Shown here one piece after another: positions 3,301-59,500 of a DNA stretch of 64,000 bases (position 1 is the stretch's first letter; the number at the start of each line of letters is the position of its first letter). Source of the stretch: Leptasterias polaris (Eukaryota; Echinodermata; Asteroidea; Forcipulatida; Asteriidae). The notes under the pieces are model-generated. The model saw only the letters and a program-made list of their open reading frames with translations. It made no database searches and was not told where the DNA came from. The stretch is taken from NCBI GenBank assembly GCA_037783415.1, contig JAZGTN010000026.1, forward strand, positions 3,679,001 to 3,743,000, written 5' to 3'. The translations under genes and the position numbers were made by a program.

Positions 3301-3900
3301 TGTTTTTCCTAAACGAAATACAATACTTGGCAGCTTATTAATAGTTGAATGTAAATAACAGTCCACATCCAGCTCATTTCGAATTCAACTCATTAAAGGG
3401 AAATGCTGAGCATCATTAATATCAATTATGCTCCATAAAGCCTAAATTCATACCCGCGGCCAAGTCTCAGGAATGCTGGCATGGCGCACTTGACCTAATT
3501 GTCGAATTCCCTGTTTATTGTGAATAGTTATGTTTTTTTAATAACATTTACAAAAGATTAAACCCCCCCCCCCCCCCCCACCCGTTTTATATCAAGTTGA
3601 ACCTCTTAACAAACTCATCATTTCAGCCTAAAGTCTATTTGAAGTCGAGTCAACTTTTTTAGAGCGACCTAAATATTTGTTGGATGGTGACGCTAACATA
3701 ATGTGCAGAAAATAGTTATGTACGGAGAAGGCAAGTTTTTCTTAGTGGGCAGATGGGTGACATTTTTGGGATTGTGAATTGTGCCTTCAATGATGCAAGC
3801 ATGGAGTTTGGCACACCGTCAGAGTATGACATGAAACAGATATTTTTTTGGCCAAAGGGCCATCGCAGATTTGGCTTTTTAAAAATTATATGGTGGGTAG
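334..3900. other. Repeat-rich spacer, no gene recognised
   Basis: AT-rich spacer with short pieces of repeats. A perfect 22-bp palindrome built on TCATAGAGCTA lies near 1222-1243. An imperfect fold-back lies at about 1307-1464, with arms containing AGTCAAGGCGCTCG. A GC-rich patch at about 2195-2270 resembles the guanine-rich ends of the hAT-like elements at 12.3 and 55 kb. A poly-C run lies at 3564-3580. The open frames here have no recognisable domains. The 5' exon(s) of the LITAF gene could lie here, but I could not pick one out. Confidence 0.5.
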
Positions 3901-4046
3901 AATAATAAGCAACTTTCAATATTTTCAAATTGGCTTTCATTACTTGTTTTTATGCGTGTGTCTTAGAGCCACAACTACTTGCTGTAGGCCAACTACTTTG
4001 ACATTTGGACAAAGGGTTTTATTTTCTCGTTCTATCTATTGTTCAG

Positions 4047-6734
<2,688 letters not shown>

Positions 6735-8756: not shown

Positions 8757-11369
8757 TCATACTGCTAGCATAAACAACATTGCCAGCATACAAACGTCAT
8801 TGCCAACAATTGTCATTTGATTCCAATATTCCACTTTTTTCTTCTGCCAATATTTAAAATCCAAATCCACCAAAACGATGATAATTAAAAGCAACACGAG
8901 AAGAATCCTTACACATGTTTTAACTTTCATCTCTGACATTAACATGAAACTGGATATCAAACAGACAATGCAGAATAATGAGACTACAGCAAGACCACCA
9001 GGTACTCGATGCATGAAGGCCTTTTGTTCTACCACTTCCTGATTTAACTGGAAAGCCAAGACGATGAAATAAGATGCCAGGAGGCTTCGCCCTAATGGGT
9101 ACAACTTTGCCAGACGATATCGCCTGCTTAGTTCCTCATATGAACGGCTTGCCACTATAAGGTATGTACCAATGACACCAAGATCTCTTGACAACATTCT
9201 GATCTGAAATAAAAACAAAATATAAGTTATTCAGGACTTGAGTAATATTTTAAATAAAAGTTAAATTATAATCTAGCTGCAAAAGCTACAGAGGAAACGT
9301 TATCATCGAGGTTGTTACAAATTCATCATGCTCATTGCGACAATGTGTTTTTGTGAGGGGGGGGGGGTGTAAATGCTTAACAGAGTGTGAAATCTATCCA
9401 TTGAAAGCTTTGAATAATGAACTGATCAAGGCTGGGTAGTGGGGGAAATGATCTGTTAAAGCGATTCAGTGCTGTTGTGCTGAACATACAACAAGTCACT
9501 GACCTTAACCACCTTGCCATCTAACTGAACAACTTCTTGATTTCCAAAGTATGTACTATGATGAGATTGTCATGCCTTGCTAAAATAGTAAGGAAAAACT
9601 AAGTGGGATTTAGGATTTTGTTAATCAAATTTACCATGAGCCAGGGTTTGAAGCGCAAGCTGGGGCTAGTGTGAGTAACTAACATCATAATGGCTGCTTG
9701 AATGGCACACATCAAGGCAAATAAGGACCTCTGAGTTGCAAATGACATCATACTTCCCTCTAGAATCAGTAATGCTAAGTGAACGTAGATAACAATATGA
9801 GGGTACCCCTCCGGTCTGAAACAAGAAAAAACAAGGATATTAGCAGTCAAGATAAATACTTTTAATTTGAGCGTCAATGGTGGTGGTCAAAGAGCTTTAC
9901 GGTTTTAAACAACTCTTCCATTCATCATACCCCAAAGTTTTGATCAATGAGGGTTATGTGAAAAAGAGTGGAATTATGGAGGAAGATTGATGCGACTGAC
10001 ATGGAAAGACCCTTTCAAAAAAGGCAGTGTTTATAGTGCTAGCACTGAACATGCCGGAGACTTGGACCATGAATTTTAGATTGTGTTTCCCTGAAGAAAA
10101 AACCCCAATACAACTCAGAAAAACAAAAGGTATTTCAATCCATTTAAATGTAAAAGAATAATTTTACCATTTTGGGGATGGAAACAAAAAACAAATATTT
10201 TTTGGTTTATTAAAGGAAGTTTACCCACACTGTAACTGTTGTTGTACTGTGTGTGAGTGTGAAAAATTAAAGAGTGCCAACGGAACACACAATCACACCT
10301 CCAAAATTTCAGGGCTTAGCCCAAGTGCTAGTATTATTAGTAATTTGTAGTACGTTCATACCAGGTTATGGATTATGGCATTAAACTAGCAGGTGCAGAC
10401 AAAACTCAAGGCATAAAAAGATACGCATACTGTGCAAGTAAAAGCAGTTATTTAATTTAAGCATTTTGTGTGGGGGATGAGTAATTAGCTGAAAGTGAAG
10501 GTGACACAAGCTACTGCAGGGGTTTTCCAACGAACAGCATGATTGCAAATACCACAACACAAGGGTAATTGGGCTTGTAAGGCATTTACAGTTTAGGTAT
10601 GGGTTTCACCTGACAATCCCATTGACATTCAAGATGGCCACCGCGTGAGGTGAGGGTTTCAATATGATTTGGGAGAAGTGTGATTAATTGGCGATGAACC
10701 ATACAGAAATTGATGACAGGAGGAGTCCACGCAAGACGATTGACAGGAGATTGGGGGTGGATGGTCGAGTTAATGTTGTTTTAACCTTGCGTGTTTGTCT
10801 ACCAGTTAGTGTACTGCATTCGGGGCGATGATACATGCAGTATGGGGTCCATGATCAGTGGTAAAACTGATCACTCTCTCCCAAAATTCAGCAAGGGTTC
10901 TTCAGCAAAAAGAAATTATCCAAGTGATGAAAGGATATTGTAAATTAATAATATGTTGGTAAAATAAAGTTCTTCCAAAACCGTAAGAGCAGGGACATTA
11001 CAACAAAAATAAGAGGAAAATAAATCGGAAAAGCCAGAGAGAATAGAGAGCATGTCTGCACTGCATGTCTGCACGTCGTCTGCACAACCCAATTGATTGA
11101 AAATCATGGTAGGCCTAGTCGTTACTCGTTATGCATGGTCCGGAAACTGGGCACATACAAATCTTGAAAAACCTACCGTGTAGTGTACGGTGTTGTTGAC
11201 AGAATTAAGAGCTTGGGTAATTATTTAGGTAAAAAAAATACCTTCTACCAGCCTCTCTTTCACTGCACAGCATTGTAAATGCGAGGGCACAAAAAAATGG
11301 AAATCTTGTGAGAACAAATTCTCCGCTTTTCCTCAGAAAGTGAGAAAGTCCTGACCTCTGCGGTGCCAT
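8757..11369 (-). CDS. TMEM101: Transmembrane protein 101 homologue, complete, three exons
   Basis: Minus-strand exons are 11369-11242, 9815-9635 and 9203-8757. Introns are GT..AG, phases are compatible, and together they give 251 residues; vertebrate TMEM101 is about 257. The start codon has an AAAATGGC context. Family landmarks are seen in order: the N-terminal LTRFPFF segment, the EREAGRRPE stretch across the first splice, PWLM followed by IRMLSR at the second splice, SYEELSRRYR, VPGG, and a C-terminal VEYWNQM close to the VEFWNQM of the human protein. Several hydrophobic segments predict a multi-pass membrane protein. TMEM101 has been picked up in screens as an NF-kB/MAPK pathway activator, but its molecular function is not established. 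Nothing in the reading frame is broken. Confidence 0.93.
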
Positions 11370-14568: not shown

Positions 14569-16384
14569 TTATCCTGTTCTCAACTTCCTGGCCTGTACGG
14601 ATTCTCTTGAAACGGTTTTTCTATCAGTTACTTGGCCAAGAGCCGCCATCAAGTCAATGAACATAGCAGTAGGGTTGATCTTCCAGCCGAACTCTCCAGC
14701 CTTGTAGTCCCACGGGAAGGTGTGGTGGTAGTTATGCCAACCTTCTCCTCCTGTGAGGGTAGAAACGAGGGCATTTTCGACGGGGTTGATGGAGTGATCG
14801 TACGGCTTATTACCCCAGAGGTGAGCTGCACTGTTCACCAACCATGTGCTGTTCATTAGGAGGCAGTAGCGGAGTATTGCGGCGACGAAGTAGGCATTCC
14901 AGAGTGATTCTCCCCACAGGGTGGGGACGGTAGTCGGCATAATGAAGCAGAAGAACAGCATCAAGGGAAGAAAATACCTGGAAATTATAAACAAAATGAT
15001 TTTCTGAGATTAAAATCTGAATAGACAAATTACTAATTAAACCATGGTAATTTATAACTCTGTGTAAATAAAGTAACACTATTAAATGTAGAGTGAATCT
15101 CCTGTAGGCCTAGGGGGAAATGGCAAAATAAAGTAGTAACAAATATTGTATCGCCGTCAAAATCGACATTTCGCAACATTTCGCAACATTTAGACGTGCA
15201 GAATAAAAACATATGAAAACTAAATGTTTACAACTATACATTACATATCTTTTTGTATTCTGTCCGCATTCTTTTGGTACGTTTACATTTAATGGTGTTC
15301 TTTTGAATATCTGTACTCACTTTCTCTGATACCGGATGACAGGGTCAGCCATGAGGTCACTCAGATCAACTTTTGACCCCTTCTCGATAACATCAGGATG
15401 TTTACGGCACAGAAGCCAACCCACGTGGGCAAAGAAGAACCCCCTCTTAGCATTGTGGGGGTCAGCATTGGTCTCCGTGTATTTGTGATGTACACGATGT
15501 TCACGCACCCAGAAATAAATGTCCATCTACACAAAAGTTAACGAAAATTAAAACTTTAGTATTTTAAACGATGGTTAGGCCTATACTATGGCGCAGTAGT
15601 TTCTGTAATGTCATTTGCATTGGTATAGACAACTCAATCTGCTGTTACTAGATTGAAAAATGTATGACATTAAAGGGACACGTTAGTTGAATACAATTTT
15701 GAATGCACTTATCTTTGTTTCATTCCTTTTTTCAATAGAATATTCGATCTTTATAAAGTGTTTGTTTAATCACGTCTGCGCACTGGGGTGTTTGTTTGTT
15801 TGTTTGTTTGTTAGGGTTGTTTGTTTGTTTGTTTGTTTGTTTTCATAATGGAAATTGTATGTAAAACTTAAATGTACTTCTTCAAACTCCTCAGTCAAGA
15901 ATCGAAAGGGGCTTACTTGAAACGCTATGCAGTCAAACATGGCCAGTAACAATCGTAGAGGGAGCTTTGCTTTGTAAGATCGGTGTGCCCATAAGCGATG
16001 TGCTCCGGCTGTTATCCCGAGGGCGGAAACCCAGTAGAGGAGACTTGCTGTAACAGTGACGAAAGGTTTATTATTAGGCCTATTGAATAAATCATGCATA
16101 GAAATATTTTATGAATATCCATGGATTTATCATTTATATCAACTTAACAACAAAGCCTCGCCATTTTACTGCAAAACACAACGAGAAAACTTACCCCAAA
16201 GCAAAGTATATAAGCAGCATTTCCATGTGATACAAAGTAAGGCATATATTGCTGCCCCGTGTAGAGATGCCATAAGAACCACATTACGCCACACAATTAT
16301 AGGTTGCGGCCTGACGTCAGTCTCAAGAGAAGATCCTTCACCTATGAATTTGGCGTCTTCATTTTGGTCAATACAGGACACCAT
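14569..16384 (-). CDS. SCD: Stearoyl-CoA (acyl-CoA delta-9) desaturase, complete, four coding exons
   Basis: Coding exons on the minus strand are 16384-16195, 16047-15917, 15526-15321 and 14977-14569 (190, 131, 206 and 409 nt). Joined, they give 311 residues with every intron GT..AG and in frame. The enzyme introduces a cis double bond at C9 of acyl-CoAs, with cytochrome b5 and O2, in the ER membrane. All diiron ligands are visible: HRLWAH (about 80-85), HRVHH (117-121), NSAAH (224-228) and HNYHH (257-261). The [26 protein letters not shown] and [11 protein letters not shown] signatures and the hydrophobic hairpins are intact. The N-terminus is short compared with mammalian SCD (about 355 residues). 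The chosen ATG lies just inside an exon that begins after an acceptor (ACCGCAG), so a 5' UTR exon lies further upstream. The intron between exons 2 and 3 carries a TGTT microsatellite. Confidence 0.95.
15786..15842. repeat. (TGTT)n microsatellite
   Basis: A run of TGTT/GTTT tetranucleotides with one interruption (GTTAGGGTTG), within the desaturase intron between coding exons 2 and 3. Confidence 0.9.
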
Positions 16385-23731: not shown

Positions 23732-26700
23732 ATGTCTGCTAGTGCACCACCGGCGAGTGGTTTCACCACAGGCCTTGAAAAAGTGGCAGAAACACTACAT
23801 TGTCCATTGTGCTTGGACTTCTACAAAGATCCCGTGGCTTTAGCATGTCAGCATAACTTCTGTCGTGGTTGCATCAAAAATGTTGTACCCAGGCGGGTCG
23901 GTGCCTACCATGCCCTCGAATGCCCGTTATGCAGGAAAATAATGCAGCTGAGTCGTCGAGACGGGGTAGACCTTATTCCCAAGAACTTCGAACGCGAGTC
24001 GATCGTTGAAACGTTCCAAGCAGCGGAAAGAGAGCATGCACTGTCTGTAAGATCATTGAGGGAATCAGTAGAAGAATCGGTCACTCAAAACTTGGTGAAA
24101 CAAATTGATAAAATACATATGTACAGCCAAGAACAGCCCCTGTCAGACGAAGTTTTCTTGTCTCAAACGCACTCGGGAGTCGACACAGGGATACAGGAAG
24201 AGGAAACAGCTTCTTGTGTACATGTACCCTTTCAGTTTCAGCAAGAGGATTGTTCTTTAACACCGCAGCAACAGCAACAGCAACATCTCCATCAGCTGAA
24301 GCAAGAACAGAACAAACTGCAGCTCAAACTCGAGCAAGAGGATGCACTTGAGTCAAGGAGGAACCGACTTCAGCAACCGCAGGAACCAGATTGGCTACAA
24401 CAGCAAACTGACAGATGGAATGAACTGCAGCCACCAGCAGAGGTAGAGCACGACAGTGTCAAGCAAAGTACTGCCACCAGTGGTAGTACTACTAGCTTGC
24501 CCTGGAATGTTCAACCACCTTACCAATATCCACCAAGTCTTAAACATTCTCAAAGTCTTCCTTATCCATTGATGCCTGCAAATGAAAGTTACCCATACCC
24601 TAGCTGCGATAACCAGAGCTTCGGTTATCCCAGCTACCCGTACCCTCCTGAAGAAACAGCCACAATCAGACAACCATCTTTAACACTTACTATTAAAGAA
24701 TCAAGCTGCAGCGAATGCTACTTTCCTGCCTCAGCACATTGTGAGGATTGTCTTCGCTTCTTCTGCTGGCAGTGTTTGCAAGACCTCCATAATACAACCA
24801 GGGGTCTCTATGCGGGCCACAGGGTGACTGAGCTCACAGCTAGTATTTTGAAATCAGAAAGTGCAGATTCTTGTTCACCATTGTCAACCCATGGATCTTC
24901 TGTCTTGACTCCAAAGCAAGATTCTACTTTCACTCTAAACACTGCCATGGTAAGTGTTTCTACGTACCATGTATGTAGGTAGACCATGCATACACTAAAA
25001 CTTTCACAAGGACACTAACTCACAATTATTTTTAAATGCATGAATTGAATTTTATTATTTATTTGTTTTACCCCTTACCTTACACTAATGTGCAATTAGT
25101 TCGGTATGAAGTAGTTGTGATTTGTCGTGTAAACAATTAAACAATTTAAACACTTTAAACACATACCATGGAGAAAGGACAGCCTCCTTTCTCTATGCAC
25201 CATATACAAACGCAAATGTCGCATGGAAAAATTGAGTCAGTGGTATGAATGCTTTTAATATTAATGTCACGCAATGTCCCAACTCCACCATAAATATTCA
25301 ATTATACTAATGAGATTCTGTCATCTGAATTAATGTTTGAATAAATAAATGGCTGCTTTTGATCCCTTTACAGGCATCACTGAATGTTGCTGGTGAATTG
25401 GCTTCAATGGGGGTCAGTAAACAGACTTATGTAAGTATTTATTTTAAGCATGGACTGGCTGGTAAACTTCACTGAGGTCACTAGTGCCTGTCTTTGTGTC
25501 CGGATGGACTGTGAGTGACCAGCAGATCTTAGGCGGATGGAAATACATAGATCTAGGACCCTCTTCTGGTCACTCACAGCTCGATTGGGGGGGGGGGCAT
25601 TAATGTGACCAGATTATGCTAGTCCATTTGTATTTTATACGACCTCTGCTCAGTCTACAATATGAATTAAGAAAATGAACTTTTCAGGCTTTTATAATTG
25701 AATTGTTTTAATTCAACAATTAACTCCTACAGGCTACAGCAGTTAAACACTTCCAGGAATGCTTTTAGGCCTTAGATTCAGTTTTGAGTTTCTGTTCATT
25801 GTACATGGAGGAGATGAGCCATTTTTAATATGATATGCCTTGGTAACCTCCAGGGGGCGCTATAATTTGTAAGCAGTAAAAATTTTGAGTGCAGTACCTA
25901 GAAAGAATGAAAGATTATTTCCTCGGATCAATTCCATGCAAAGAAGCTTTTAGATTACTATTCCTGCAAATGTTCATTAATAACCAACTAATTTGGTATA
26001 ATTTGAAAGAATACAAAAAAGTGTTACATGCTTTTGCTAGAAAAATTTCAATGAAGTTAAGGCCAAGTAAAATAAATAACATGTTGCTCGTCCAGACTTT
26101 TTAAAAAATTGGTGAGGGAGGTCCTTGTTATTTGTTATTTTCAAATTTGTTGTTATTTTTTTCAAGATGGCCACCATGTCTAAGATTGCCGCCAAAATGT
26201 ATTTGAAGATGGTTTTATGGTTTTATGAGCATGTTCTACACATGTATATGTCCCCAAATTCTGTTTAAGGTTGCCATGTGTGTTTCTGTGTCCATTTCGA
26301 TACATATTCTTTCCAAGAGTTCTTCTTGCTTTTGCTCCAAAATTATTCTTTATTGCTCAATAAAAATATGTAAATTGATTTCAAATTTATTTATTTTTAT
26401 TTTTTTGGAAATAACAAATAACAAAAAATTAGGTGCGGCGTCCAAAAACGGAGCGGGCGGGGACGAGCAACATGTTATTTATTTTACTTGGCCTAATGGG
26501 TTTTAAAAAAATGATGTTTCCTTCATAAATTAGGCTTATTGATATATTTTTTTCTTTCCTGATTCTACCATACTTTTCTTGTTCTTTAGAAAATACCATA
26601 CAACTGTGAAATCACTGCCATGGGTCCTGGGAAGCACATCACTGTTGTTGGACAACCAGCCAAGAATTGTAAACGGTATGAAAGTTACACAGTGTTTCAA

Positions 26701-28731
26701 ATCCTGTGACAGAATCTTAAAAACTAACATTTTGTGCTTTTGAACTTCATGGCTCTGCTTGCTGCCAATTTGGCTTTTCTTGTCACCATTCCCTGCTTAC
26801 AGGGTAGGCGCCAAATTTCTGTACTTCAGTGAAGAAATAGATTATCATTATTTTAGGTGTCTCTCCGGTGATGAAACCAAGGAATTCCATGCTTACGTCA
26901 AGCGTATTTCACGAGTAAGCAGGGAATTTTTGCTTGTGCGCTTGCGTAGTCCATGTTACTAGGCATTCTACGCCTTCACAGCTACCGCAGAAATTCGGCG
27001 CTTGCTCGGTAAGTGGAGAATGGTGATTGCAAGTGCAGAATTCGGCGGTAAGCAGAGCCATGAAGTTGTGCCCAGGTGAGCTGAGTCATGTCTGTTATTA
27101 CCCTGGATTTACTTCTGATTTACACCCAAGGTTCCACATCAACTTCCAGCTGGATAAGAATAGTAAAACAGGAGACCTTGCTCTGCATTTCAACCCTCGA
27201 TTTAGTAAGCCCCTTATGGTGGTTCGTAACTCCAGAATGAAGGGGCAGTATGGTTCAGAAGAGAAAGGGGGACAACCATTTCCATTCATGGCTGGACGCC
27301 CATTCAAGGTGGAGTTTATTTGCCTGCTTGACAAGTTTGAGGTAAAGTTTACAGTTGCTTTTCACTCTTGTTAAAATGTGATGTATTCATGGCTATGAAA
27401 ACGTTTTGCTCAAGAAAACATTTTGCAACATGACTGTATTATGTTTCAAGAAAAGATTTTAATAGTGTTGTAGTCAGGTACTTTTTTAGTGGAGTATCGA
27501 GTACTGCCGAGTTCTAGTGTGGCCGAGTGGTACTTGGAGACGAGTACAGAGTGTTCTGATATCTGAGTATCAATGCTCAATTACTGGACTCTTGCATTTT
27601 GAGTTATGAAAACCGTTTATGTTGGGGCTTATGTATGGAATAGCTTACCAAAACAATAACCATGCCACAAACACTTGGGCAAACCCTTTCTTACCAATAT
27701 AAATGCACTGGGTTCTTTTACGTATGTGCATTACACAAGACACTAAGACAAATGGCTTTTAGTCCCATTCGAAGGATGAAGCAACCATGATGGTTTCCAA
27801 GACCCCTCGGCCAAGGAACTCCTCATCATGACATCTTGATACAGTCTTTGTTTTTTCCTAGTTTAATTAAGATATGTGCACTTGAAATCGTCCAGTGTGC
27901 TGCACAACCTAATGATTATTCCTGAAAGTTGGGCAGCCAAATCCATTACCTGAACTGTTTCTAATGTTCAGGCATGCAACTCTTCCGCGGATCGGCGGAT
28001 TTCCGCTTTTTATAAAATAGAATACCGCCGTTACAAAAAAAATCCGCTTAAAAAAATCACGCTGCATGAAAAAAAAAAAAATCCCGCTGAAGGAAACATT
28101 GCTTATTGAAAAGAAATAAAGGTTCAGGATTCTTAAAGTCTGGCTCCGCGGAAGTTTACACATACAAAAGCATTACACAGTCCAGACACAGACACAAGTT
28201 CTCCTCGTACAGCATACCTTCTACACTATTTTTTGCACAGTCTGGCTCTGTAGTATTTTTTATTGCTATTTGTGTAAGGGGATGCGGCGGAAACCAGACG
28301 CTGTAAGAGTGCAAGTGAACCACGTGATCGATAGGTGTTTGCTCGAAAAATAACGATGGCGTCCACCAGGAAAGTCATCGTTGATCGGTAATTTTCCGCT
28401 TTTTTTTCAGCTGAAGAGTTGCATGCCTGTAATGTTAGGCCATATCCAAATTAATGGCTCCAAAACTACAGTGGTTATTGCTGAAATGCCAAAAAGTCCT
28501 ATTCTTTATGTTGTCCTTGCAGTCATTGGCCATAGCCACTGCCGAAGTGGCTTGATTCAGAGAAAGACTTAGTGTCAGCCATTAATATTGAACTATAATC
28601 CCATTCTACAGGTTCGTGTGGATAATCAGTACTTCATTTTCTATAAACATCGAATCCATGATCTGGCTTCCATCAAGGTCTTCGTCATTGCTGGTGATGT
28701 GGAAATCTCATCTGTTCTTGGCTGTTCTTAA
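23732..28731 (+). CDS. RING / B-box / C-terminal galectin fusion protein (TRIM-like), five exons
   Basis: Exons are 23732-24949, 25374-25430, 26590-26675, 27131-27341 and 28612-28731. All introns are GT..AG and in frame, giving 563 residues. The start has context ACAAAATGTC. Residues 24-67 are a complete C3HC4 RING (C24, C27, C39, H41, C44, C47, C64, C67), implying E2 binding and ubiquitin transfer. Residues about 185-255 are Gln-rich coil, followed by a Pro/Tyr-rich linker. Residues 326-363 are a B-box (C326, C329, C337, C340, C345, C348, H353, H363). Residues 426-562 are a whole galectin domain: IPYNCEI, PGKHITVVG, FHINFQ, LHFNPRF, VVRNS, YGSEEK, PFKVEF, VRVDNQYFIFYKHRI and IAGDVEI. Typical galectins have Trp where Tyr494 stands. 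The galectin splice at R|F is the usual place in that family. The order differs from classic TRIMs because the B-box follows the Gln-rich part. Likely a cytosolic glycan-directed E3 ligase (inference). Paralogue at 31930. Confidence 0.88.
25508..25579. repeat. Small hairpin in intron 2 of the RING-galectin gene
   Basis: Perfect 14-bp inverted repeat (CTGTGAGTGACCAG and its reverse complement) separated by about 44 bases. It lies in the intron between exons 2 and 3. Confidence 0.7.
26743..27067. mobile_element. Inverted-repeat element (MITE family B) in a galectin intron
   Basis: A 325-bp element with terminal inverted repeats AACTTCATGGCTCTGCTT at the left and its reverse complement at the right, extended by diverged CGCCAAATT-like blocks. 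Internal shorter inverted blocks (CCCTGCTTAC / GTAAGCAGGG) are also present. A short relative lies at 51134-51235. The element occupies most of the 455-bp intron between galectin exons 3 and 4 without touching the splice sites. Confidence 0.75.
27749..27792. repeat. Dispersed repeat fragment
   Basis: The block around GGCTTTTAGTCCCATTCGAAG resembles the block at about 57625-57665 (GGCTTAATGTCCCATCGGAAG). The shared wording identifies a dispersed repeat, but its class was not determined. Confidence 0.55.
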
Positions 28732-31929: not shown

Positions 31930-33138
31930 ATGTCTGTAGAAAAACCACTACCTCAACCATATTCACCAATCGAGGGACTTGATGAACCACTTAAGGAGTT
32001 AAAAGATGAGCTACAGTGTCCTTTGTGTTTAGACTTCTACAGAGACCCCGTGGCTCTTCCATGTCAGCATAGCTTCTGTCGGGAATGTGTTACAGGGTTG
32101 GTTAAGCCACAGGGTCAGGATGGTAGCCATGGAGAGCTGGAGTGCCCTCTATGCCGGAAAAGGGTACACCTGGACGGTACCGGGGTTGTCGAGTGCCTAC
32201 CGCGGAATTTCCATCTGGGAGAAATCGTCGGAAAGTTCCATGCGGTGGAGACGCGTTTGGACGTGATAAGGACTGAACAGCTTGCGAAACAGCTGTTAAA
32301 AGATACATCTGAACCAGAACAGCATCAACCTCCCGCCCTGCAAGACCATAAACAACCAGAGGTACCAACGCAGAAGAATGGACAAACGCAGAATCAGCGT
32401 GAAGGGGAACTAGCAATGGAACAGTTAGAGCAACTGGAGCTGCGTCAGCAACGTTTTAACCAGGTTGGTGGGTTACACTCTAGTATTAGTAATGACAATA
32501 AACCGATGAGGGCTAACTGTGCACAGCCAACAAACATACGTGAAAACCAAGGACAGCAGCATCGTCGGCAAGCAGGACTTGAGCAGCGGCAGTTAATACC
32601 ATCGGAAGTGAGTCAGCATGGTGGCTTCGTCCCAACACTGCAAGAACACCCCCACGACAGTTTCCGTCAAATGCGTGAAGAGCGGCACAACCAGCAACGA
32701 GTGCTGCACCAACAGTTAGGACAACAACGTGGGGAACAGCAAGCTAACCTTAAAAAGCTACGTGAGCAGCTGCATCAGCAACGTCAACAGCAACAGAATC
32801 GTCAGCAAATGCTACATCAACAATTAGGACAACAACGCGAAGGGCAGAAGCGTAACATGCAACAACTACAACAGCAGCTACATCAGCAACAGCAAAAGCT
32901 GCATCAACAATTAGGACAACAACGCGAAGGGCAGAAGCGTAACATGCAACAACTACAACAACAGCTACGTCAGGAACGTCAGGAACGTCAACAGCAAAAG
33001 AATGAACAGCAAATGCTTCAGAAGGAAATGCAACATCAACAACATCAAATGCAAATGCAGCAGCAACAACAAATGCAGCAGCAACAAGGTCAGCGTCGAG
33101 CACAGCAGCAACAACAACAACGTGAACATTACCATTAA
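31930..33138 (+). CDS. RING-finger protein with long Gln-rich coiled-coil tail; paralogue of the RING-galectin gene
   Basis: Single open exon, 402 residues from the ATG at 31930; an in-frame ATG at 31897 would add 11. The MS start aligns with the paralogue. Complete C3HC4 RING: C30, C33, C45, H47, C50, C53, C72, C75. The blocks CPLCLDFYRDPVAL, CQHSFCREC, LECPLCRKR and PRNFHLGEIVGKFHAVE match the RING-galectin protein closely, so the two arose by duplication. From about residue 125 the chain is polar. From about residue 240 it is a Gln/Arg/His-rich coil that includes a near-exact tandem repeat of LHQQLGQQREGQKRNMQQLQ, and it ends in poly-Gln. No B-box or galectin domain follows. A donor-like CGTGTCT|GTAAGTG at about 33233 lies past the stop, so a spliced, longer form is conceivable but unsupported. 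Likely a ubiquitin-ligase-type protein. Confidence 0.82.
   Translation: MSVEKPLPQPYSPIEGLDEPLKELKDELQCPLCLDFYRDPVALPCQHSFCRECVTGLVKPQGQDGSHGELECPLCRKRVHLDGTGVVECLPRNFHLGEIVGKFHAVETRLDVIRTEQLAKQLLKDTSEPEQHQPPALQDHKQPEVPTQKNGQTQNQREGELAMEQLEQLELRQQRFNQVGGLHSSISNDNKPMRANCAQPTNIRENQGQQHRRQAGLEQRQLIPSEVSQHGGFVPTLQEHPHDSFRQMREERHNQQRVLHQQLGQQRGEQQANLKKLREQLHQQRQQQQNRQQMLHQQLGQQREGQKRNMQQLQQQLHQQQQKLHQQLGQQREGQKRNMQQLQQQLRQERQERQQQKNEQQMLQKEMQHQQHQMQMQQQQQMQQQQGQRRAQQQQQQREHYH
32707..32995 (+). repeat. Coding tandem repeat in the RING paralogue
   Basis: Three successive copies of a block encoding a Gln/Arg-rich coil. The second and third share an almost identical stretch of more than 60 bases (containing TTAGGACAACAACGCGAAGG). 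The first copy is diverged. Expansion keeps the frame and lengthens the coiled coil. Confidence 0.8.
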
Positions 33139-34723: not shown

Positions 34724-35479
34724 AACCCGAACCTATGGTGTTCCATATGTGCCACTCCTTTCTGTCGCCTTTTCCATTTTGTCCGTCGCCTTTTCAATTT
34801 TGTCTGTCGCCTTTTGACTTTTCAATTTTTTCTGTCGCCTTTTCAATTTTTTCTGTCGCCTTTTCAATTTTGTCCGTCGCCTTTTCAATTTTTTCCCTCG
34901 CCTTTTAAATTTTTCCGTCGCCTTTTCAATTTCAGAATCATGTGATAGTCACCTGGTAGTCACGTGGAAAAACCCACGGAAAAAATTGAAAAGGCGACGG
35001 AAAAAATTGAAAAGGCGACGGAAAAAATTGAAAAGGCGAGGGACAAAATTGAAAAGGCGACAGACCAAATTGAAAAGGCGACGGACCAAATTGAAAAGGC
35101 GACAGACAAAATTGAAAAGGCGAAGGAAAAAATTGAAAAGGCGACGGACAAAATTGAAAAGGCGAAGGAAAAAATTGAAAAGGCAACGGACAAAATTGAA
35201 AAGGCGACAGAAAAAATTGAAAAGGCGACAGACAAAATTGAAAAGGCGACGGACAAAATTGAAAAGGCGACAGAAAAAATTGAAAAGGCGACAGACAAAA
35301 TTGAAAAGGCGACGGACAAAATTGAAAAGGCGACGGACAAAATTGAAAAGGCGAAGGAAAAAATTGAAAAGGCGACGGACAAAATTGAAAAGGCGACGGA
35401 CAAAATTGGAAAGGCGACGGACAAAATTGAAAAGGCGACGGAAAGGAGTGGCACATATGGAACACCATACGAACCCCTA
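34724..35479. mobile_element. Palindromic element with inverted 21-bp minisatellite arrays
   Basis: The ends are inverted copies: left GAACCTATGGTGTTCCATAT, right the reverse complement with one change, and both run on into GTGCCACTCCTTT. Inside are two arrays of one 21-bp unit (AAAATTGAAAAGGCGACGGAC) in opposite orientation: about 8 reverse copies at 34761-34933 and about 22 forward copies at 34978-35452, separated by about 45 unique bases. The whole can fold into a giant hairpin. Because 21 is a multiple of three, all frames without a stop stay open through the array and give long artificial ORFs, including a KIEKATD heptad. I consider these repeat by-products. Confidence 0.88.
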
Positions 35480-41561: not shown

Positions 41562-44500
41562 ATGGAACTGGTAAGTGTCATTTTATCCCTTTTTATTAAT
41601 TTAACCTGCCTGATTTAAGTGTCTGGCTAGGATAGGAACTGTTCTCTTCTTATAAAAGATGTACAATGTACAATAAAACATACCCTAGCAGCTCTATGAA
41701 TTTTGACAGGTCTATTTCTGTATTTGTAACCCTAAGTGTATAAAATCCATCATACGCAAATCAAGGACCTCCTACCTACTAAATGATGACATTATTCACT
41801 CATGAAATTGCAATCAACTAAGAAATTACTGCATAATGACAAGTGATTAGTGTATGTCAGTTAGTCTAATGATAAAGTTGGATACCCTCATCAGGACAAC
41901 TGAACATTGTGGTCAACTGCATACTAATAATGATAGCTTCTTGTTAGAAAACTTGTTCAACTGTCAATTAGGTCTATATCCTAATTATTTCAAAATCTTG
42001 CGAGAGGTTCTTGCTCGCCCTCTCTCATAAAACAGGATTAAAACAAGTAGGCCTAAAAGTTATCATCTAATCCTTCAATTTTGATCCACAAGTTTTCACA
42101 TATCAAAACAATAAATGATATTAAATAGCTACAAAAAACACGGGAATTCAGATGCAAAACTTCATTTTTTTAAATTTGGAGTTTAACATATTATGACTGC
42201 TACTGGTTTCCAGTTTATTAATATTTTTATTCTTAAAAAATGATCATTTTGTCTGTCAAACATGAGATATTGCTTATCAGATTTCCGCTATGAAAATAAG
42301 CAGGTAATCTGTCTGTACACCATGAGCCGGATAAGCCTACTTTATGGGTATGATTGCCTCTTTTCCCTCTGTGAAGAATAAGACCTGTATATACAGTTCC
42401 ATTACACACAGTATTTTGTGGTACTAGTGAGAGTTTTCTAAATGATTAGCAATTTTGTTTATGTTCTAGTAGGTGATTTAATTTTTGGGGGGCAGTGCTA
42501 TTCGACCCTAAAACCCTGTCTGAAATTAACTAAAGTACTTGGGAATAATCTCACAAATATTTGATTGTGGATTTTTTGTTTCTCTTTATAATCAAAACCC
42601 AACCCATTTCATAGATTTCTAGTTATGCTTCATTATAAATTAATGATGCTGATGTAGGTTACATGTTTTACCTCCAATGGGGTCACTTCTTGTGCAATAT
42701 ATTATAGGCCTACATGTACAATGTCATACAGAGCTGGAACCACACCTACAAACAGAGTCCAAAGTTCAACAATTAGTTTGTATACAGTTCTACACCCTCT
42801 TTTATGGTTTGTCAGTTCAGACATGTTGTTTAGTGTGCATTATTATCATTCATCTCATCATGCGTAGTGTTTGTATTTTTTCAAATGAATCAAGAAAAAC
42901 CTTGAACATTAAATTAATGAGATTCTGTATGGTCACACTAACAGATAACAAAGAATTTGAGAATTTCACAGGAAGTAGGGCCTATATTTAAGAAAAACTA
43001 CCTGAATAACTTTTATAATTGAATGCAAAATAGAAAGAAAAAAGGCAACACATGAACAATGTACCTTTTCCCTGTGACTTTTATTTTAACTACAACATAA
43101 TTGGGTAAGAACCCCTCAAAATACCAGATCTACAAATGATGTAAAAAAAGACTTAGTTTTAAAAGGGCCTCTAGATACATGTAGACATCATGTAACCATC
43201 ATGTAACTATTCTTGAAGGTGGTCGTTGACTCAACTAGCAAAATGGTTCTGTACTAAGGTTACTGCAGATTCAAATGTAGATCAACAAACTGCTTAGCTT
43301 TTTTAGACAGGTAGGCCTAACCTTTAAAAAATAGTTCACTGTACTTGAAATGCGATCCAAATTTAAATCAACAATGTCCCCGGTAGATTTGACTCATTTT
43401 CCAAAAGCACAAAGTCATTACCACATGCAAGGCTTGCTTTCTCTGACTCCCTTTATTAAGTTAAGAATCAGGCGTCTCAAATTACACCAAGCTGGGAAAG
43501 ATTTATCCTCAATTTCACACCAGTCAGCGATTCACATTTCAACCTTCTCTTATTTTGTGCCAACAAATTCTGTAAGTAATAAAACTCAGTCTGTAATTGA
43601 TTGTGAACATGCATGTACATGGATCCAGGATCTCACTAATTATTATAAACTCAATCATTTTCCAACTAGACATGTGAATGCCATCAATGTAGGATTAAGG
43701 TGTCTGTGTTTTTCATTAGCAACAAGATGCTTCGAGTGAACATTTAGTAATTTTTTTTGTTAATGCATGGCTTGAAACACCCAGGTAATTTTTACAATTG
43801 TCCAGCAACCACTCAGCAGAAATTATTAAATGTTTTTCCAGATGCATGCACTTTTAAGTAATTTTTTTTTATCAATTTGGGTTGAAAACAAGAAAATTGG
43901 GTAGAGCAGGACTTGATCCAGGGATCACCGGATTCACGTGCCTGCGCTCTACCACCTGAGCTATCTAGCCCTAATGTTGGCAGTCTCGTTATTTTGTCAA
44001 TATCTTTGTTCGTGGGTGCCATGTAGCCAGGGATCACACCAAAGTTAATGATACAACCTAGAAAGTGGCAGCAGAGGGATCACCTTATTAAGTGGATGCA
44101 CTTTTCAAGACTTACAATTTCCAGTTTCAGACCTACTCAAAAAACTTGATGATGTCTAACGTTCTACAAAATTTAAGCCCATCAATATATTTTCTATCAC
44201 ATGCATAAAAGATGCAGTATTTTTATTTGTTGATTTGTATTAAGTATCCTAGGTTGAAGGTTTTTGTCTCTTCTTTGTGCAAGCTGTTAACAATTTGTTC
44301 TGTTAAGCTGTGGTTATTGTTTTATTTTGTGACTATTGCAAAGCTTTTTCTTTGAATGGGATTAAACTTTTGATGAATATTTGAATGGGGCAAGTCAAGA
44401 GTATGTACTATGTACCTAGGCCTATAATAAACAATAGACCTTGCATATGACGTCATTTGAGTAGGGCGCCCTCGCCTAGAGGTCAAAAGGAAGATGTTCA

Positions 44501-50500: not shown

Positions 50501-53500
50501 TTATCACTGTATCTCTTGCCCTTGTCCTCATATGTCAGGAATAATATATTCAACTAAAATCTCTGTACACATACACCTGGTCTGTATTTTATAATTGGTT
50601 TGTTGGCTATTGTGGCGTGCCATCACTGTATCAAAGGTTGGGCTGATTTGTTTACTCATTCACCCCACTCCCAATCTTCCATACTGTGCAAAAAGGAAAT
50701 TGGATTTTCTGGAATTAAACAAGACAACATATGCATCTGAAATAATTTGAGCATAGCTTTATAGAAATAAGACAGTGATTTAATAGTAAAGTGTATTTGA
50801 TACTGACATTGATTACATAATTAAAACTATCTTAGTGTTGATAAACAGAACTGGCTGTCTAGATTTGGCACTAAATCCCTAAGTAAATATTGGCTAGCCC
50901 CACTGTGGTCACTTCCCACAGGACCATATCTGGCTTGTCTGAGCTTACCTACATGTTAACTAAGATGAGGTTTTGATGTATTATGTCCATGGTACATTTT
51001 GCAGTTGTTTGGTTATTGACAGGATTCCCATAACCTGATTCACATAACCTGTATATTAATCAAGTATTAAGTTGTAACATAAACATTTGTATGGGAATAG
51101 GTGATGAGGGATAAAAAGATTCAATCTGGACCAAATTTCATTGCTCTTTGCTTACCGTAGTATTCTGGGCTTACGGGCCATAGAATTACATGCATCGTAA
51201 ATGCAGAATTTGGCGGTAAGCAGAGCCATGAAATTGGACCCCATTCATAGAGGTGGTCTGATGAAAAATATCTGTAGTCTTCCTTGGATATGTTGACTTG
51301 ATATCATGAAAATTCTAGGCTCCCCGGCAAAAATGTATGTTAAATTTGTTGAAATACACTGCAACATGTTTCTCCTTTTTTTTATTATAAGAAACCCATC
51401 CTCCCTCGATCTCCCCTTAGAAAAGTGGGGACAGTTTGAATCCGGTAATTAGCAGCTGGTACTGCAACAATTGTATTATTGAATTAGGGACAAAGAATAT
51501 GGGTTTAGTTTTGACCCAACACTTGCTCTGTATACTTAGATATCTGCTTTAGAATGACAGACTTGTTGGTTCAAATTCCATCCAAGTTCTATGCCTGTGG
51601 TTTGTCCCTGTATGACTATGGAAATTACTATGTATACAATGCTTATCAACAAGCGACCGTGTAGTGTATGATACAACTTAATGCTATTTTATGAAAAGTA
51701 ATTTTCTTTGTTTATTCTGGTCTTTTACAGAGATCTTCATGAAGGATCTATACTCTTCAATCTGAAGACACGATTTGACAAGGGACTTATTTATGTGAGT
51801 GTAATGCCTCTAAGGGCCATGACACAGGGGACAATTTACAAGCAACTACTTCCAGGCAATCTCCAAGAAGACAAAATATCCACATGTAAATTTCCACATA
51901 AAATTGTCTTGGAGACAGTAAGATACTAATGGACCCCTTGTATTGGCCGCCATCACTGAGGAGCCAAACAATGGAAATGAGCATGCGTGTATGCGCCATG
52001 CACAACTCTTAGCTAATGATAGGTCTTCACTGATAACGGTGAGGGTGCTGTTTGGGCTTGTGATGTCATCTATGCATGGAGTCTATAGAAATACATGTAT
52101 GTCTCTTGTGCAACCAAAGTGTTTCTTTTGCATGCAGTTCAGTTGGTTACCCCCAAGTTGCCTGTCAAAATTGCCATATATGGCCTTAAGGTTGTTTGTT
52201 TGGGGAGAAAATGTTTCACATGCTTTTTAACTTTAATTTACTTATAATCAAGTATTGTTGTTTGTTGATTGTTTTCAGACGTACACAGGAAGCATTTTGG
52301 TGGCTGTTAACCCATACAAACTCTTTGACATCTATGGTATTGATACAGTCAAGAAGTACCAGGGGAAACCTTTGGGAAGCCTACCTCCGTATGTATATAA
52401 ACAGTTTTGATGATTGTTATTGGCTGTAAAATATTTAGTGCTAATTTTTTTCTCCCTAAATTGTTGCCAAAAAATCCATAGATTTTGTTTTTCTCAAAAT
52501 ATTGTTAACTCTGAAAACAAATGGAACTTTTATTGTTACTGTTATTTCTGGTAATGAAACCAAGGATGCCTCATAATTGAACTTAATCACTGTAGCTTGC
52601 AAGCCTGAGGAAACCTGTAAACAAGGGTGCTTGAATGTTCCTGTCAAATATTCTTTAAAAAATACATTAAGCACAGATTACTTTTGAGAAAAAAAAATAT
52701 AAAAAAATTTGATAGATCAACAGTCTTCTAATGTAAATTTTTCTACAACCCATCTAGAATCAACCACAAGTACTGATACATGTTTGTGTTTAAGTTTTCT
52801 GCTCAGCCTGATCAGTTTAACTCTATTAAATATTGTCATCAGGTAGCGAAAAATTTGCTTAAACCAAGCTCAGCTAACTTTAGCTAACCAGCCTTTATGT
52901 TGGTTGGTGATGCACTTATGCCAGTCATTATTTGCTCTTTGGGGCTAGGTCAGAACCCTATAAACCTTATCTGCTGCTTGGCCATGGATCATAGCTTGGC
53001 CATGGATCATAGCTTGGCCATGGATCATAGCTTGGCCATGGATCATAGCTTGGCCATGGATCATAGCTTGGCCATGGATCATAGCTTGGCCATGGATCAT
53101 AGCTTGGCCATGGATCATAGCTTGGCCATGGATCATAGCTTGGCCATGGATCATAGCTTGGCCATGGATCATAGCTTGGCCATGGATCATAGCTTGGCCA
53201 TGGATCATAGCTTGGCCATGGATCATAGCTTGGCCATGGATCATAGCTTGGCCATGGATCATAGCTTGGCCATGGATCATAGCTTGGCCATGGATCATAG
53301 CTTGGCCATGGATCATAGCTTGGCCATGGATCATAGCTTGGCCATGGATCATAGCTTGGCCATGGATCATAGCTTGGCCATGGATCATAGCTTGGCCATG
53401 GATCATAGCTTGGCCATGGATCATAGCTTGGCCATGGATCATAGCTTGGCCATGGATCATAGCTTGGCCAGGTATGATCAATCTTAGGTAAACAGTAGCA

Positions 53501-56500
53501 GGGATCTCACACAACAGGACCCTAGTTGTACACAGAATAAGAAGGCTAGAAACTGACCCGACTCTATTCAATAATTTGATACAAACATAGGCACCCTAAA
53601 ATTTGTTTCCATCATTGAAGAAAATGTTAATTTCCCTTGAAGTTTTGTCTGTAACATGCATGTAGGTTATGAATTACAGCTCAATACTCCTCAAAATGTA
53701 CAAACAAGGCTTCAGAAATGAAATGTTAATTGTTATTTTATCATTTACTCTGTCTGCAGCCACCTGTTTGCCATTGCGAATGGTGCCTATGCCCGTATGC
53801 AACAAACCGACAAGAACCAATGTGTTATCATTAGTGGAGAGAGCGGTGCCGGGAAAACAGAGAGTACTAAACTCATTATGCAGTATTTGGCCGCTGTCAA
53901 TAAATCCCCATCAAACCTCACAACGGAGCGGGTGAGTGGTAGGACAGAGTGCTATGGGAAGATAGGCACTTTGATGGGCAACCCCCTTTCTACATGCTTA
54001 AGTCCTAGTAAAATGAAAAAACAAGCCAACTGTTTGGTTGACTTTTATGTAAATCCTGTTCTTAAACTTAATTAGCTGGATTGCAATTTTTGTTTTCACT
54101 AATAACTTCCAAAAAGACAGATTCATTATTAGCTTTACCCATTAATTCATTAACTAATCACAACTGCGACTGCATTTCCAAAAGCATGACAATAATTTGA
54201 CGTGTTAAAACCCCATTACAAATGAAAGCAAGCTACTGCCGTTTGGATAGCTGCCATGTGTGATTATGTGTGGCTCAGTGTGCTAGCTTAAATGTTTGAA
54301 GGATAGAGATGCCCAGCATCCATCCCACATGAATGCTGTTGCCAGGTAGTTGCTATGGTGAACAGGGCCCCAATTTCATAGAGCTGCAAAAAGTATTGCT
54401 TAACAAAAATGAGCAGGATGCAAGGCACAGATAGATAGATGTGACATGATATTTTGACTGGTAATTATAATCTGGTAAGTATAATTTTGTTGTGCTTAGC
54501 AACATTTTGTGCTTATAAGCAGCTCTATGAAATTTGTCATGGTTAAATTTTACACCTGGATAAAATGCTGCCCAATAATGATATTGAAGATTGTTTTAAA
54601 TCATTTTGTTTGTCCAGTTCACTCTCATTTTGTTCCTTAATAAATAAACCCATAAAAAACACTTTGCGTTTATTGCCAGATACTTGAGGCAAATCCTTTA
54701 TTGGAATCCTTTGGTAATGCCAAGACAGTTAGAAATGACAACTCAAGTCGCTTCGGGAAATACACAGAAGTCTTCTTCAGAAAGTAAGCGTTTTCTTTGT
54801 AAGACATTCCTGAAAAAAAACCTGTCTTGTTTTATATCAATACAATATTGTTTACTGCAGAATATTAAAATATAGCAATTTTACAATAATGTGAAGAAAA
54901 TGTGCATTCCTGTTAAAGTCACTTATTGTAAATTATTAAGGGCAAGACAATAATTCAAATGTGTCAACAGATTTGGGAATCAGTCAACGGCGCACCCAGG
55001 ATTAAGTTTTGGGGGGGGCTCAAACCAATGTATTGGGTGGGGTCCAGGGGTCGGCCTTACGGCCCCTGGTGGGGTCCAGGGGCGAAGCCCCGGTGGGGGT
55101 CCAGGGGGAAAAGCCCCCTGGAGCTCTGAGCTTTTGGCGTTTTAGGGGTGTAAAATCAAGCCTCTTTATGCATAAAACTAGAAAGAAAAAAACTTTTTAA
55201 GCACTTCTGATCCATATAAATCTTTTAAAGTTTATTTTAAAAATTTCCTACCAACTTTTCATCACTGGGTGGCAAATTCCATGAATAAGTGGGCGGCAAA
55301 CCCAGATCCTACAGATAAACATTTGTTTTGCGAAGGTGGTGTCACATAATAATAATTTATATCAGATTACTGTTAAAAAATGAATTTATAAGTTTAACCA
55401 GAGCATAAATGTGATGTGTAATTTGGAAAGGGTAGGATTGCAGACCTTTTTAAAACATCGTGGGTAAAAAAACATTACTATCCGGCGTTTCTCAAATTCA
55501 AGTGTAGTACTATACAGGCAATCCATAAGGGGGAAAAACCATTGAATGCCGGAACGACGTGACATATATTTTATCCTGGACAAATTAGCCCGTTGGTTTC
55601 AAATGGTTAAATATGTTATTGTTGCAAGTTTAGGCAATTTACAAGGGAGTTGTCATAAAATGGTGTTCAAAATCTTTCATCTCGCACCTCGCGTTATCGA
55701 ATCTCCAGTATAAAAGAGTAATTTGGCAGGAAAAAAAATGCGAATGGCAAAGGAAGAAAAGAAAATACTGCCACCGGAAATAAAAACCAAAAGCTACACA
55801 CACATTTGCAACTTTTCTCCCTAGGCTCTTTTTTCCTTCTCCCTTCCTCCCCTCCCCCATTTTTTCTTTTTCTTTCTTTTCTTCCCCTTCCTCCCCCGTT
55901 TTTTTCTTTTTTTTTACCATCTTGGGGGGGGGCTCAAGCCCCCGAGCCCCCCCTTGGGTGCGCCGTTGGAATCAGTAGTACAAACTTTTGCATAATTGAT
56001 GTTCTATACTATTAAGGAATCCATGGAATACATGAATAACATGATATGTGTTTGTAGGGGTGTCATCACTGGTGCTAAGACAACAGATTATCTTCTTGAG
56101 AAGTCTCGGATAGTACATCAGGTAAACAATCTTTGGATTAAACCCTTTACAGACCAAAGGGGCCAACGCATCCTGTGCAAGTTATGGCCACAAGTGGTTT
56201 GTACCAAAATGCCCACGACCTTAAACAGCCGCAACTTTTGACACACTTGCACTCAACCAAAAAGATCAAAGTCAAAGTCATCCTAAGTTTAACTTTTTCC
56301 AATATTTCCTACATTAACACAGTATCCCCTTATCACAAACAAAACAAAATTTTGGTTTCATGTAGTTTTTCCAGACATTTTTACTGAACAATTTTAATTT
56401 TAAAAAACCCACAATAGCCTTCTAGCCGTGTCTGGGCATAGTAGTATTGCAATAAATTGTCAATAAATTTTCTCTAAAAGGTTAAAGTATGTTAATTTAT

Positions 56501-59500
56501 TTGTCTGTTAGTTTGATATATTGTTAACTTAAGTGGTACAAATTCAGACCTCAATCTTAATATCTTTTAGTATTATGACATTGTACAATTTTAAGAAAGT
56601 AACTGTGTTCAAATATGTGTGTTGAAGAATGTAAGGACATTAATTGAACTTTATTTTAGGTAAACATTGCTTGGATGTGACAGCTTTTCAGAAACAATCA
56701 AAGAAATACTACACTTGACAAGATGTATGCACAATTTGTTTAAAGAAGTTCAAGCACTTGACACATTTAAAATCACAAAACTAGGCATGTAAACCTTCAA
56801 AGCTTTGGTAAATAAAACTACAGTCATTAAAACTATACGCCCCATGAATTAAAATGTCCAAGAAGTGAAAAGCCCAAGAATCACTTGTTCAAACTTAAAA
56901 TGTCGATTAAAATTAGTTTTATCTGAAATGCTTAGCCTATCCTCCCAAATTAAAACTGTGATACTCTGTTTTCCCGAAAAATTGAATTGATCTGCTATTT
57001 GAATGAGTTTGTGACTGTTTAGTTTTCTACAACAATTATTGAAACTGTTTTACTTTTCCTAAATTTCTGCACCATTTATTTCAGGGACCCAATGAGAGGA
57101 ACTACCACATCTTCTATGAGCTCTTAGCAGGACTTTCTTCCCCCGAGGCAGCCAAGTATGGCCTGCACACAGCAGAGAGGTATCACTTCCTGAACAAAGG
57201 GGGCAGCTGCAAGATTGAAGGGAAAGACGATGGGGAGGACTTCTACCGTCTTGTCTCTGCCATGGAGGTCTTGAGCTTCAGTCCTTCAGAGCAGGATGTC
57301 ATCTTTGGAATACTGGCTTCTATACTGCATCTTGGAAACCTCAACATGCGCACTGACCAGGTGGGAGGGATCTTACTATCATTTTAATTCTATTATTTTA
57401 CAATGTTTTCTGACTGTGACTAAAGAAAATGTCATTATTATTATGTTCATATTGTTCTGGTAATGAAACCAAGGATGCATCATAAGTGAACTTAATCATT
57501 GTAGTTTGCAAGCCTGAGGAAACCTGTCAACAAGGGTGCTTGTTGTGTGAACCAGAAACACCAGGGTTAACCACTACTCTTCCAAGTGTTTCTGTTTTTT
57601 TACGTACACAACCAACCCTAGTACGCCGGACCAATGGCTTAATGTCCCATCGGAAGGACAAAGCAAATATGGTAAAGTATCTAAGGACACATCTTCATAA
57701 AGATCATCTCTCTTGATGTACCATGCATTCTTATTAACTATTGTTTTGTAAAAATGTTTTGACTGTTGTAAAATTCTGTTTGTCTTCTTGCAACGGCCTG
57801 ATCGAGATATAATTTGGTATTACATTATATCTTTTTTTAATTATTATTAGTATTATAAATAAATGCCCAGTTTTCTATGTTTCATTTTTGGTATTTTTTC
57901 AGATGGAGAGCCTAGTTATTCAGAATAAGACTGAACTGAGTCTAGCTGCAAAGTTTCTTCATCTTCGCATTGAGGAGCTAGAAAGGGCCATCATGTTCAG
58001 ACTCACTGTAAGTTAATTGTTCAATCTCTTCAATGGATGATTCAATACTACCTACAAAATAAGTTGTGCTTACTTTTTGGTTTTCTACCCATATTAAGTT
58101 ACCTATTAAGCTGTGCTGAGTTATACCCTGCGTTTATTTCAACAGTCCCTTTCAGCTTTCTATGCTTTTGTTCTTGTCTATCAATTAATGTAATGGAATA
58201 GAATGCGTCACCAACTCGCCCAATTATTGTTGCTGTATCAAGCTTGGATAATAAAATTAAAAAATCAAATCAGGGTCTTGGAGGTTTGTTTTCAAGTATC
58301 TTCACTACAACTTAAAAACAACTGAAAGTGACGTATGAAGTTTTTATATACATGTAGGTAAACAGACTTTGGTTGTTTAGTGATTGAACTTCTGATAAAA
58401 TGGAAGTCAGAAAAGTAATGTCTTCTGATATGAATGATAACAAGTTAGTGATATTCTAAACTGAACTGAAGCTGAACTTTGTTATATTTTCATCTCCAGG
58501 AAACAAGAGGTGACAGAATCCTAACTCCCCGTACCTTACAACAGGCTATTGAAGCAAGGTAAATGCAGTGCCATTATTATTTTAATCTCAAAAATATAAA
58601 TTTCATTTTTAAAGTCAATGGGAAACTTTTGAATGGGCCTCTGTGGCCTCTGTGTACTAGTCCTGCTTCTAACTCGAGAACAGAGTACCTGAACATTGTT
58701 GTCACTAGTTATTCCTACTTACTTTGTCCACCATGCAAAGCTTCAAACCAAAGCTTCCAATCCCTTCTCCACACAAAATATTAACTTATATGCCCAAATC
58801 ATGTTTAAGTCTTTGGTTGTTGTGAACTTAATTTGTAAATACTTAACTTTTAATGAAAACACATTTTATTTGCAACCAGGGATGGGATTGCCAAATCTCT
58901 GTACTCATCACTGTTTTCATGGCTTGTGAGAAGCATTAACACTATTGTGGGAAACGCTGGCACAATGACATCCATTGCCATCTTGGACATTTTTGGATTT
59001 GAGGTAATGTTTTTGAACTTTCAAACTTGTTTGTTTGTATTTTCATAGGATTAGCCTTGATAAACTTGACTAAAATCCCACAGAAAGATAACATTATTTG
59101 GACTCCATTCAACCTTTCTAGGTGTACCACTTTTCAATGTGTTTTGAATTTTAAAATAGCGAAAAATTGTTCTTTCCTTCAGGTCTTCCAGAGAAACAGC
59201 TTTGAACAGATGTGCATAAATTATGCAAATGAGCACCTTCAGCACTTCTTCAACAAGCACATTTTTATGCTAGAGCAGGTACCAAATGCATCATTTATTC
59301 AAAATTCTTATAAATTTATTTGTAACTAACCATTGTGTTATTTATATTCTGAAATTTGTGTGTTGAATAAGAATAATTAACCAATGACTGATGTAAAAAG
59401 GGCAATATACTTAACAGTGCTCTCTGTTAAGACCTAAAAAGCCCACAATCTGATACCCCAAACTCAAATTCTGATAACTTAACACACAAAAGAACTTACC

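Follow-up and report, generated by a model that had tools for sequence, protein, structure and literature searches.

We have analysed a window of 64,000 nucleotides from the sea star Leptasterias polaris (contig JAZGTN010000026.1, positions 3,679,001 to 3,743,000 of the forward strand), in which a gene at 23732-28731 on the plus strand is predicted to encode a RING/B-box protein that ends in a galectin domain. Its five exons join to give one open frame of 563 codons followed by TAA, and the order of parts in the predicted 563-residue protein, as read by Pfam, is a RING (residues 24-67), a Gln-rich linker, one B-box (residues 322-367) and a galectin domain (residues 434-559). The parts of the gene are as follows, the inverted-repeat elements being those returned by a repeat search.

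23732..24949, plus strand: exon 1, with start codon, RING, Gln-rich linker and B-box (residues 1-406), matching the sea-star proteins P0001 and P0006
23801..23932, plus strand: C3HC4 RING (residues 24-67), above the cut-offs of PF00097 and PF15227, with Arg68 directly after it in the linchpin position
24401..24427, plus strand: QQxDRW(N/E)EL motif of the linker (residues 224-232), identical to Patiria at 7 of 9 positions as against 63 of 195 for the entire linker
24695..24832, plus strand: B-box zinc finger (residues 322-367) of C6H2 ligand pattern, the eight ligands lying at 326-363
25374..25430, plus strand: exon 2, a 19-residue linker joining the B-box part to the galectin
26060..26494, plus strand: inverted-repeat element in intron 2, with perfect arms of 34 nt
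26590..26675, plus strand: exon 3, the first galectin exon
26743..27067, plus strand: inverted-repeat element in intron 3, arms 86% complementary
27131..27341, plus strand: exon 4, the galectin sugar-site exon of 211 nt (HFNPR, VRN, YGSEEK), its end falling within KFEVRVD, between KFE and VRVD
27969..28429, plus strand: inverted-repeat element in intron 4, arms 91% complementary
28612..28731, plus strand: exon 5, the last galectin exon and the stop codon
29265..29270, plus strand: AATAAA, which may be a polyadenylation signal, 534 nt past the stop; a consensus match only and one of several in the window

A preliminary description of this locus had given the gene GT..AG introns of phases 0, 0, 2 and 0 that keep the frame, and the splice model does yield a single open frame, with donors GTAAGT, GTAAGT, GTATGA and GTAAAG and acceptors TACAG, TTTAG, CCAAG and TACAG; the junctions proposed there (24949-25374, 25430-26590, 26675-27131 and 27341-28612) are exactly the last and first bases of the exons. 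An in-frame stop lies 30 codons upstream of the start ATG, with no in-frame ATG intervening. G+C content is 40-47% in the exons and 33%, 35%, 44% and 40% in introns 1 to 4, respectively, and the inverted-repeat elements of introns 2-4 are consistent with later insertion of transposons into the introns of an older gene. The complete galectin fold said to be spread over the three 3' exons is borne out by Pfam, which places PF00337 on residues 434-559, encoded by exons 3-5, at 111.2 bits (cut-off 22.1 bits, E 3.1e-32). Chance joining of unrelated exons, or an artefact of prediction, can be ruled out on account of the Pfam E-values and of the identical layout found in two other sea-star genomes.

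Relatives were sought among 5.8 billion proteins, which brought up P0001, and a second search, restricted to the galectin part, brought up P0006. P0001, a 734-residue protein of Asterias amurensis, has the same layout from RING to galectin, is 77% identical to the window protein and matches all five of its exons in order; even in the short exon 2, 17 of the 19 residues are the same, and the flanking letters match on both sides. P0006, the partial 619-residue Patiria miniata protein LOC119735086, likewise runs from RING to galectin, with 43% identity overall and 63% in the galectin part, and the one-chain RING/B-box/galectin gene, whose absence from every related genome would by the terms of the preliminary description have refuted it, is thus found in species of separate superorders, Forcipulatacea and Valvatacea. 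Between the window and Patiria proteins, identical residues number 46 of 86 in the RING, 88 of 139 in the galectin, 20 of 45 in the B-box, 63 of 195 in the linker and 8 of 51 in the spacer ahead of the galectin, so that the three domains are better conserved than the stretches between them. The orthologue sequences are already public as uncharacterized proteins and, as far as our searches show, the architecture is apparently undescribed: none of the literature matches listed, most of which were judged by title and the start of the abstract, was seen to describe a galectin domain in a TRIM or RING protein. The preliminary description had also placed galectin outside the classic C-terminal modules of TRIM proteins; indeed, a C-terminal galectin is not a described class in the one TRIM classification searched, that of Marin 2012 (PMC3503706), in whose available text the word galectin does not occur.

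With middling confidence, we propose that the fusion encodes a one-chain cytosolic E3 ligase whose galectin would direct it to galactosides exposed by vesicle rupture or carried by microbes. The galectin tail would bind glycans of the beta-galactoside type exposed in the cytosol, at a broken endosome, lysosome or phagosome, or carried by a microbe; with many copies accumulating there, the N-terminal RINGs would be brought together as dimers and would transfer ubiquitin onto nearby proteins, and the tagged membrane might then be removed by autophagy or the proteasome. That the protein resides in the cytosol, binds sugar, ligates ubiquitin and acts in clearance is what we infer from its predicted parts. 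In a hydropathy scan alone, the strongest 19-residue window reaches 1.61 at residues 542-560, inside the galectin domain, the usual threshold for such windows being about 1.6, and the N terminus, read by eye, shows no hydrophobic stretch. The fusion would join families that already cooperate, because the vertebrate pairs galectin-3/TRIM16 and galectin-8/NDP52 act at damaged vesicles, galectin-3 binding TRIM16 at damaged lysosomes and galectin-8 binding NDP52 (PMC11239732, PMC6389600, PMC12913158). With galectin and RING in one chain, the sensor would have its own ligase.

The RING scores 36.9 bits with PF00097 in the whole protein and has all eight zinc ligands in place (C24, C27, C39, H41, C44, C47, C64 and C67), in agreement with the full C3HC4 RING first described. 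Its nearest solved structures are chains of TRIM3 and TRIM2, and in the protein search the next-nearest matches after P0001 and P0002 were frog TRIM25-like proteins. Where TRIM proteins have been solved with E2~Ub, an Arg linchpin touches both the E2 and the ubiquitin (PMC11992055), and many TRIM RINGs require dimerisation (PMC11992055, PMC7752041). Residues 88-129, past the RING, are without Pro or Gly and may fold into a long helix of the kind that dimerisation requires. Clustering on glycans would also bring about RING dimerisation. Several TRIM RINGs are inactive, however, among them TRIM3, the closest solved relative of this one, which is counted with those that have no helices for dimerisation and are without catalytic activity in ubiquitination (PMC11992055). 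It might therefore be argued that the RING is a pseudoligase and the protein a glycan-binding scaffold or decoy without ubiquitin transfer of its own, but the intact set of ligands, the linchpin Arg and the potential helix of residues 88-129 make this quite improbable in our view.

Several observations weigh against the proposal of a glycan-directed ligase. The B-box falls below the Pfam cut-off of 24.1 bits in all four whole proteins (window 22.1, P0001 20.5, P0002 20.7 and Patiria 17.4 bits) and, of three B-box stretches scanned alone, only the 66-residue stretch from the window passes, at 28.0 bits, the two from Patiria scoring 19.1 and 23.3 bits. The window protein also gave no match to the TRIM coiled-coil profile PF25600 (TRIM_CC) at E up to 1, whereas the frog TRIM25-like protein P0003, used as a positive control, does match it. 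The eight Cys/His positions claimed for the B-box are all present and are also complete in P0001, P0002 and P0006, but the finger lies after the Gln-rich segment and not directly after the RING. In P0006 an additional B-box-like finger (residues 197-235) precedes the Gln-rich part, both Patiria fingers having eight ligands, and one of the two lineages would thus have gained or lost a finger. A solved-structure search with the B-box gave nothing useful, its single match being a scorpion toxin chain at E 0.22; NCBIfam gave only sub-cut-off matches on P0001 and P0006 (the best, rad18, at 34.5 against 175 bits), and PHROGs gave no match on P0001. The order RING, Gln-rich segment, B-box differs from the TRIM order of RING, B-box and long coiled coil (PMC7752041). 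Judged from its predicted sequence, the window protein is TRIM-like and not a standard TRIM, a label adopted because RING and B-box are both present while it has neither the TRIM order nor a match to the coiled-coil profile.

Also to be counted on this side is that sea stars alone yielded the fusion in the three protein searches; its absence from other echinoderms there is weak evidence, because the third search, with a profile of three proteins, failed to list P0006, which was itself in the profile. A further relative, P0002 (from ENA), has a RING identical to that of P0001 at 89 of 91 residues and ends five residues beyond the exon-1 boundary, those five matching the start of intron 1. It could represent an open frame predicted from unspliced DNA or, alternatively, a transcript retaining intron 1, and a form without galectin is allowed. 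On this basis the locus might be read as giving two overlapping products, one a RING/B-box protein whose frame ends within intron 1, the other a galectin transcribed separately, the joined model being mostly a matter of prediction. The final in-frame ATG with which exon 1 closes would make a galectin-only product possible, and intron 1 contains an AATAAA at 25340. However, the galectin exons continue the reading frame of exon 1, two other genomes carry an annotation of the joined protein, the linker residues of P0001 match across the junctions and P0002 may be no more than an open frame predicted from unspliced DNA; we regard two separate products as the least probable of the readings considered.

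The principal doubt about the proposed glycan-directed ligase arises at the sugar site of the galectin, the nearest solved structures for which are chains of galectin-8. Canonical sugar contacts are kept at six of eight positions (H473, N475, R477, V485, N487 and E497), the comparison being confined to eight of the ten residues in the contact list of galectin-1 (PMC11934519) by leaving out His52 and Asp54, which fall in a loop of different length. The H, N, R, V, N and E contacts are retained in all three fusion galectins. At the other two positions, the stacking Trp68 has given way to Tyr (Tyr494 in the window protein), a change common to the three fusion galectins, and Lys499 takes the place of Arg73 in the window protein alone among the three. 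Because of these two replacements, and because conventional galectins of the same genome keep the Trp, the usual binding of lactose-type sugars may be reduced or altered, and another sugar or a protein ligand is possible.

Those conventional galectins came from a PF00337 search of the Leptasterias polaris genome, which gave at least 12 exon-level matches, a lower bound because the search scores only the best candidates: one lies in the fusion gene and the other 11 are clustered within 43 kb at C92:3457010-3499790. No second fusion was thus seen among the at least 12 matches, all 11 others lying in C92, and no RING/B-box relative of the window protein was detected at E up to 1 in the surrounding 50 kb (C92:3455001-3505000), where a lone 25-residue match to the window protein (E 0.59) is not a finger. 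All six sugar-site exons found in the cluster have Trp at the stacking position. Read by eye, these exons alternate between later and earlier end positions, and the fusion sugar-site exon ends at the later one, like the first member of each pair. The cluster would fit three two-CRD (carbohydrate-recognition domain) galectins of F4 plus F3 type, as these exon types are defined in PMC5751359. A tree built from 11 sugar-site exons groups the three fusion CRDs as one clade (support 98/94) on a branch of 0.72, apart from the conventional C92 cluster; the deep forks are weak (36/72), so the tree does not place the donor of the galectin.

The main rival reading accepts a real fusion and a RING that ligates ubiquitin, but takes the galectin to be a protein-binding or changed-ligand module that would target a partner protein or a non-galactoside sugar. 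It would be in keeping with the Tyr that replaces the stacking Trp in three of three fusion CRDs across superorders, as against Trp in six of six C92 exons, with the separate clade and its branch of 0.72, and with the capacity of galectin CRDs to bind proteins, as do the galectin-3 CRD with TRIM16 and the C-terminal CRD of galectin-8 with NDP52 (PMC11239732). The retention of H, N, R, V, N and E in all three would, however, be unexpected had sugar binding been long abandoned. Tyr, moreover, can stack on a sugar ring too. A literature search for a W68Y galectin substitution turned up nothing among the matches listed. We consider this reading possible but somewhat doubtful.

To return to the proposed glycan-directed ligase, its linker contains a unit with the motif DRWNEL, of which the window protein and Patiria P0006 have one copy each (in the latter reading DRWEEL), P0002 two and P0001 three. 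The QQxDRW(N/E)EL motif resembles an LC3-interacting motif (WxxL). As proof of autophagy an LC3-type motif was rejected, since some W..[LIV] arises in 849 of 2000 shuffles of the linker; conservation and repetition are all that would favour it. It is conceivable, though on balance unlikely, that the protein is an all-in-one responder to vesicle damage, in which the galectin would sense, RING and B-box would assemble and ubiquitinate, DRW(N/E)EL would recruit LC3-family proteins directly and the Tyr would tune the site to non-standard, perhaps microbial, sugars. If this were true, sea stars would have fused sensor, ligase and autophagy receptor in one chain. A Pro/Tyr-rich stretch (residues 262-306) precedes the B-box in the window protein; it may be like the tail of galectin-3.

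Among known systems, the window protein shares with the TRIM family (TRIM25, TRIM2/3) an N-terminal C3HC4 RING, a B-box and a C-terminal recognition domain, but differs in the Gln-rich segment between RING and B-box, in giving no coiled-coil match and in its C-terminal galectin. TRIM16 with galectin-3 brings together the same two families, and the proposed use at damaged endomembranes is alike; the vertebrate partners are separate proteins, and TRIM16 is described as having no canonical RING and a SPRY at its end (PMC12913158), whereas in the window protein the link is covalent and the RING complete. The SCF ligases with FBXO2, FBXO6 or FBXO27 are also sugar-recognising cytosolic ubiquitin ligases, which read N-glycans, FBXO27 doing so on damaged lysosomes (PMC6389600), but they are multi-subunit cullin ligases built from unrelated domains and directed at high-mannose N-glycan cores. 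The tandem-repeat galectins, such as galectin-8 (the best solved match) and those of the C92 cluster, belong by profile to the same CRD family, whereas the window protein has a single CRD fused to RING and B-box, with Tyr for Trp, in a clade of its own (98/94). Galectin-3, of chimera type, likewise carries its one CRD after a long N-terminal region of non-lectin sequence but is without RING or B-box. A fusion kept across sea-star superorders would be independent evolutionary evidence that the partnership of TRIM and galectin is useful, and galectin would join the modules with which RING/B-box ligases end. It would offer a single-gene system for asking whether exposure of glycans alone suffices to trigger ubiquitin tagging, and a natural template for glycan-directed ubiquitination.

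Other features of the window are listed below.

3830-4372, plus strand: piece of a LITAF-like zinc ribbon gene
8760-9230, minus strand: piece of a TMEM101 gene
14572-15009, minus strand: piece of a fatty-acid desaturase gene, 0.1 bit below the cut-off
31930..33138, plus strand: neighbouring relative of the fusion gene, a RING with a long, very Gln-rich tail in one open frame
53722-59326, plus strand: myosin motor exons

The RING of the neighbour at 31930-33138 shares 49 of 89 residues (55%) with the RING of the Patiria fusion and 43 of 91 (47%) with the one in the window fusion. As a candidate second fusion it was rejected, because Pfam shows no B-box or galectin in frame; when the translated window was searched at E up to 10, nothing convincing of either kind was found past it, a stray match at E 0.44 being without zinc ligands. 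This gene appears to be an ancient tandem relative that lacks the sensor end. It also contains an 87-bp tandem repeat.

A borderline tRNA match at 43898-43970 on the minus strand (29.2 against 29.0 bits), absent from the ARAGORN output, is possibly a tRNA-derived repeat. Tandem arrays recur in the window: one of 37-bp units at 5081-6416, of about 36 copies, has a 111-bp higher-order unit, and two of 21-bp units (34976-35442 and 34764-34932), reverse-complementary to each other, face one another and leave several reading frames open over long Lys/Arg- or Phe-rich repeats. Just ahead of the myosin gene exons lies a perfect 18-bp array (52976-53470) of 27.5 copies at 100% match.

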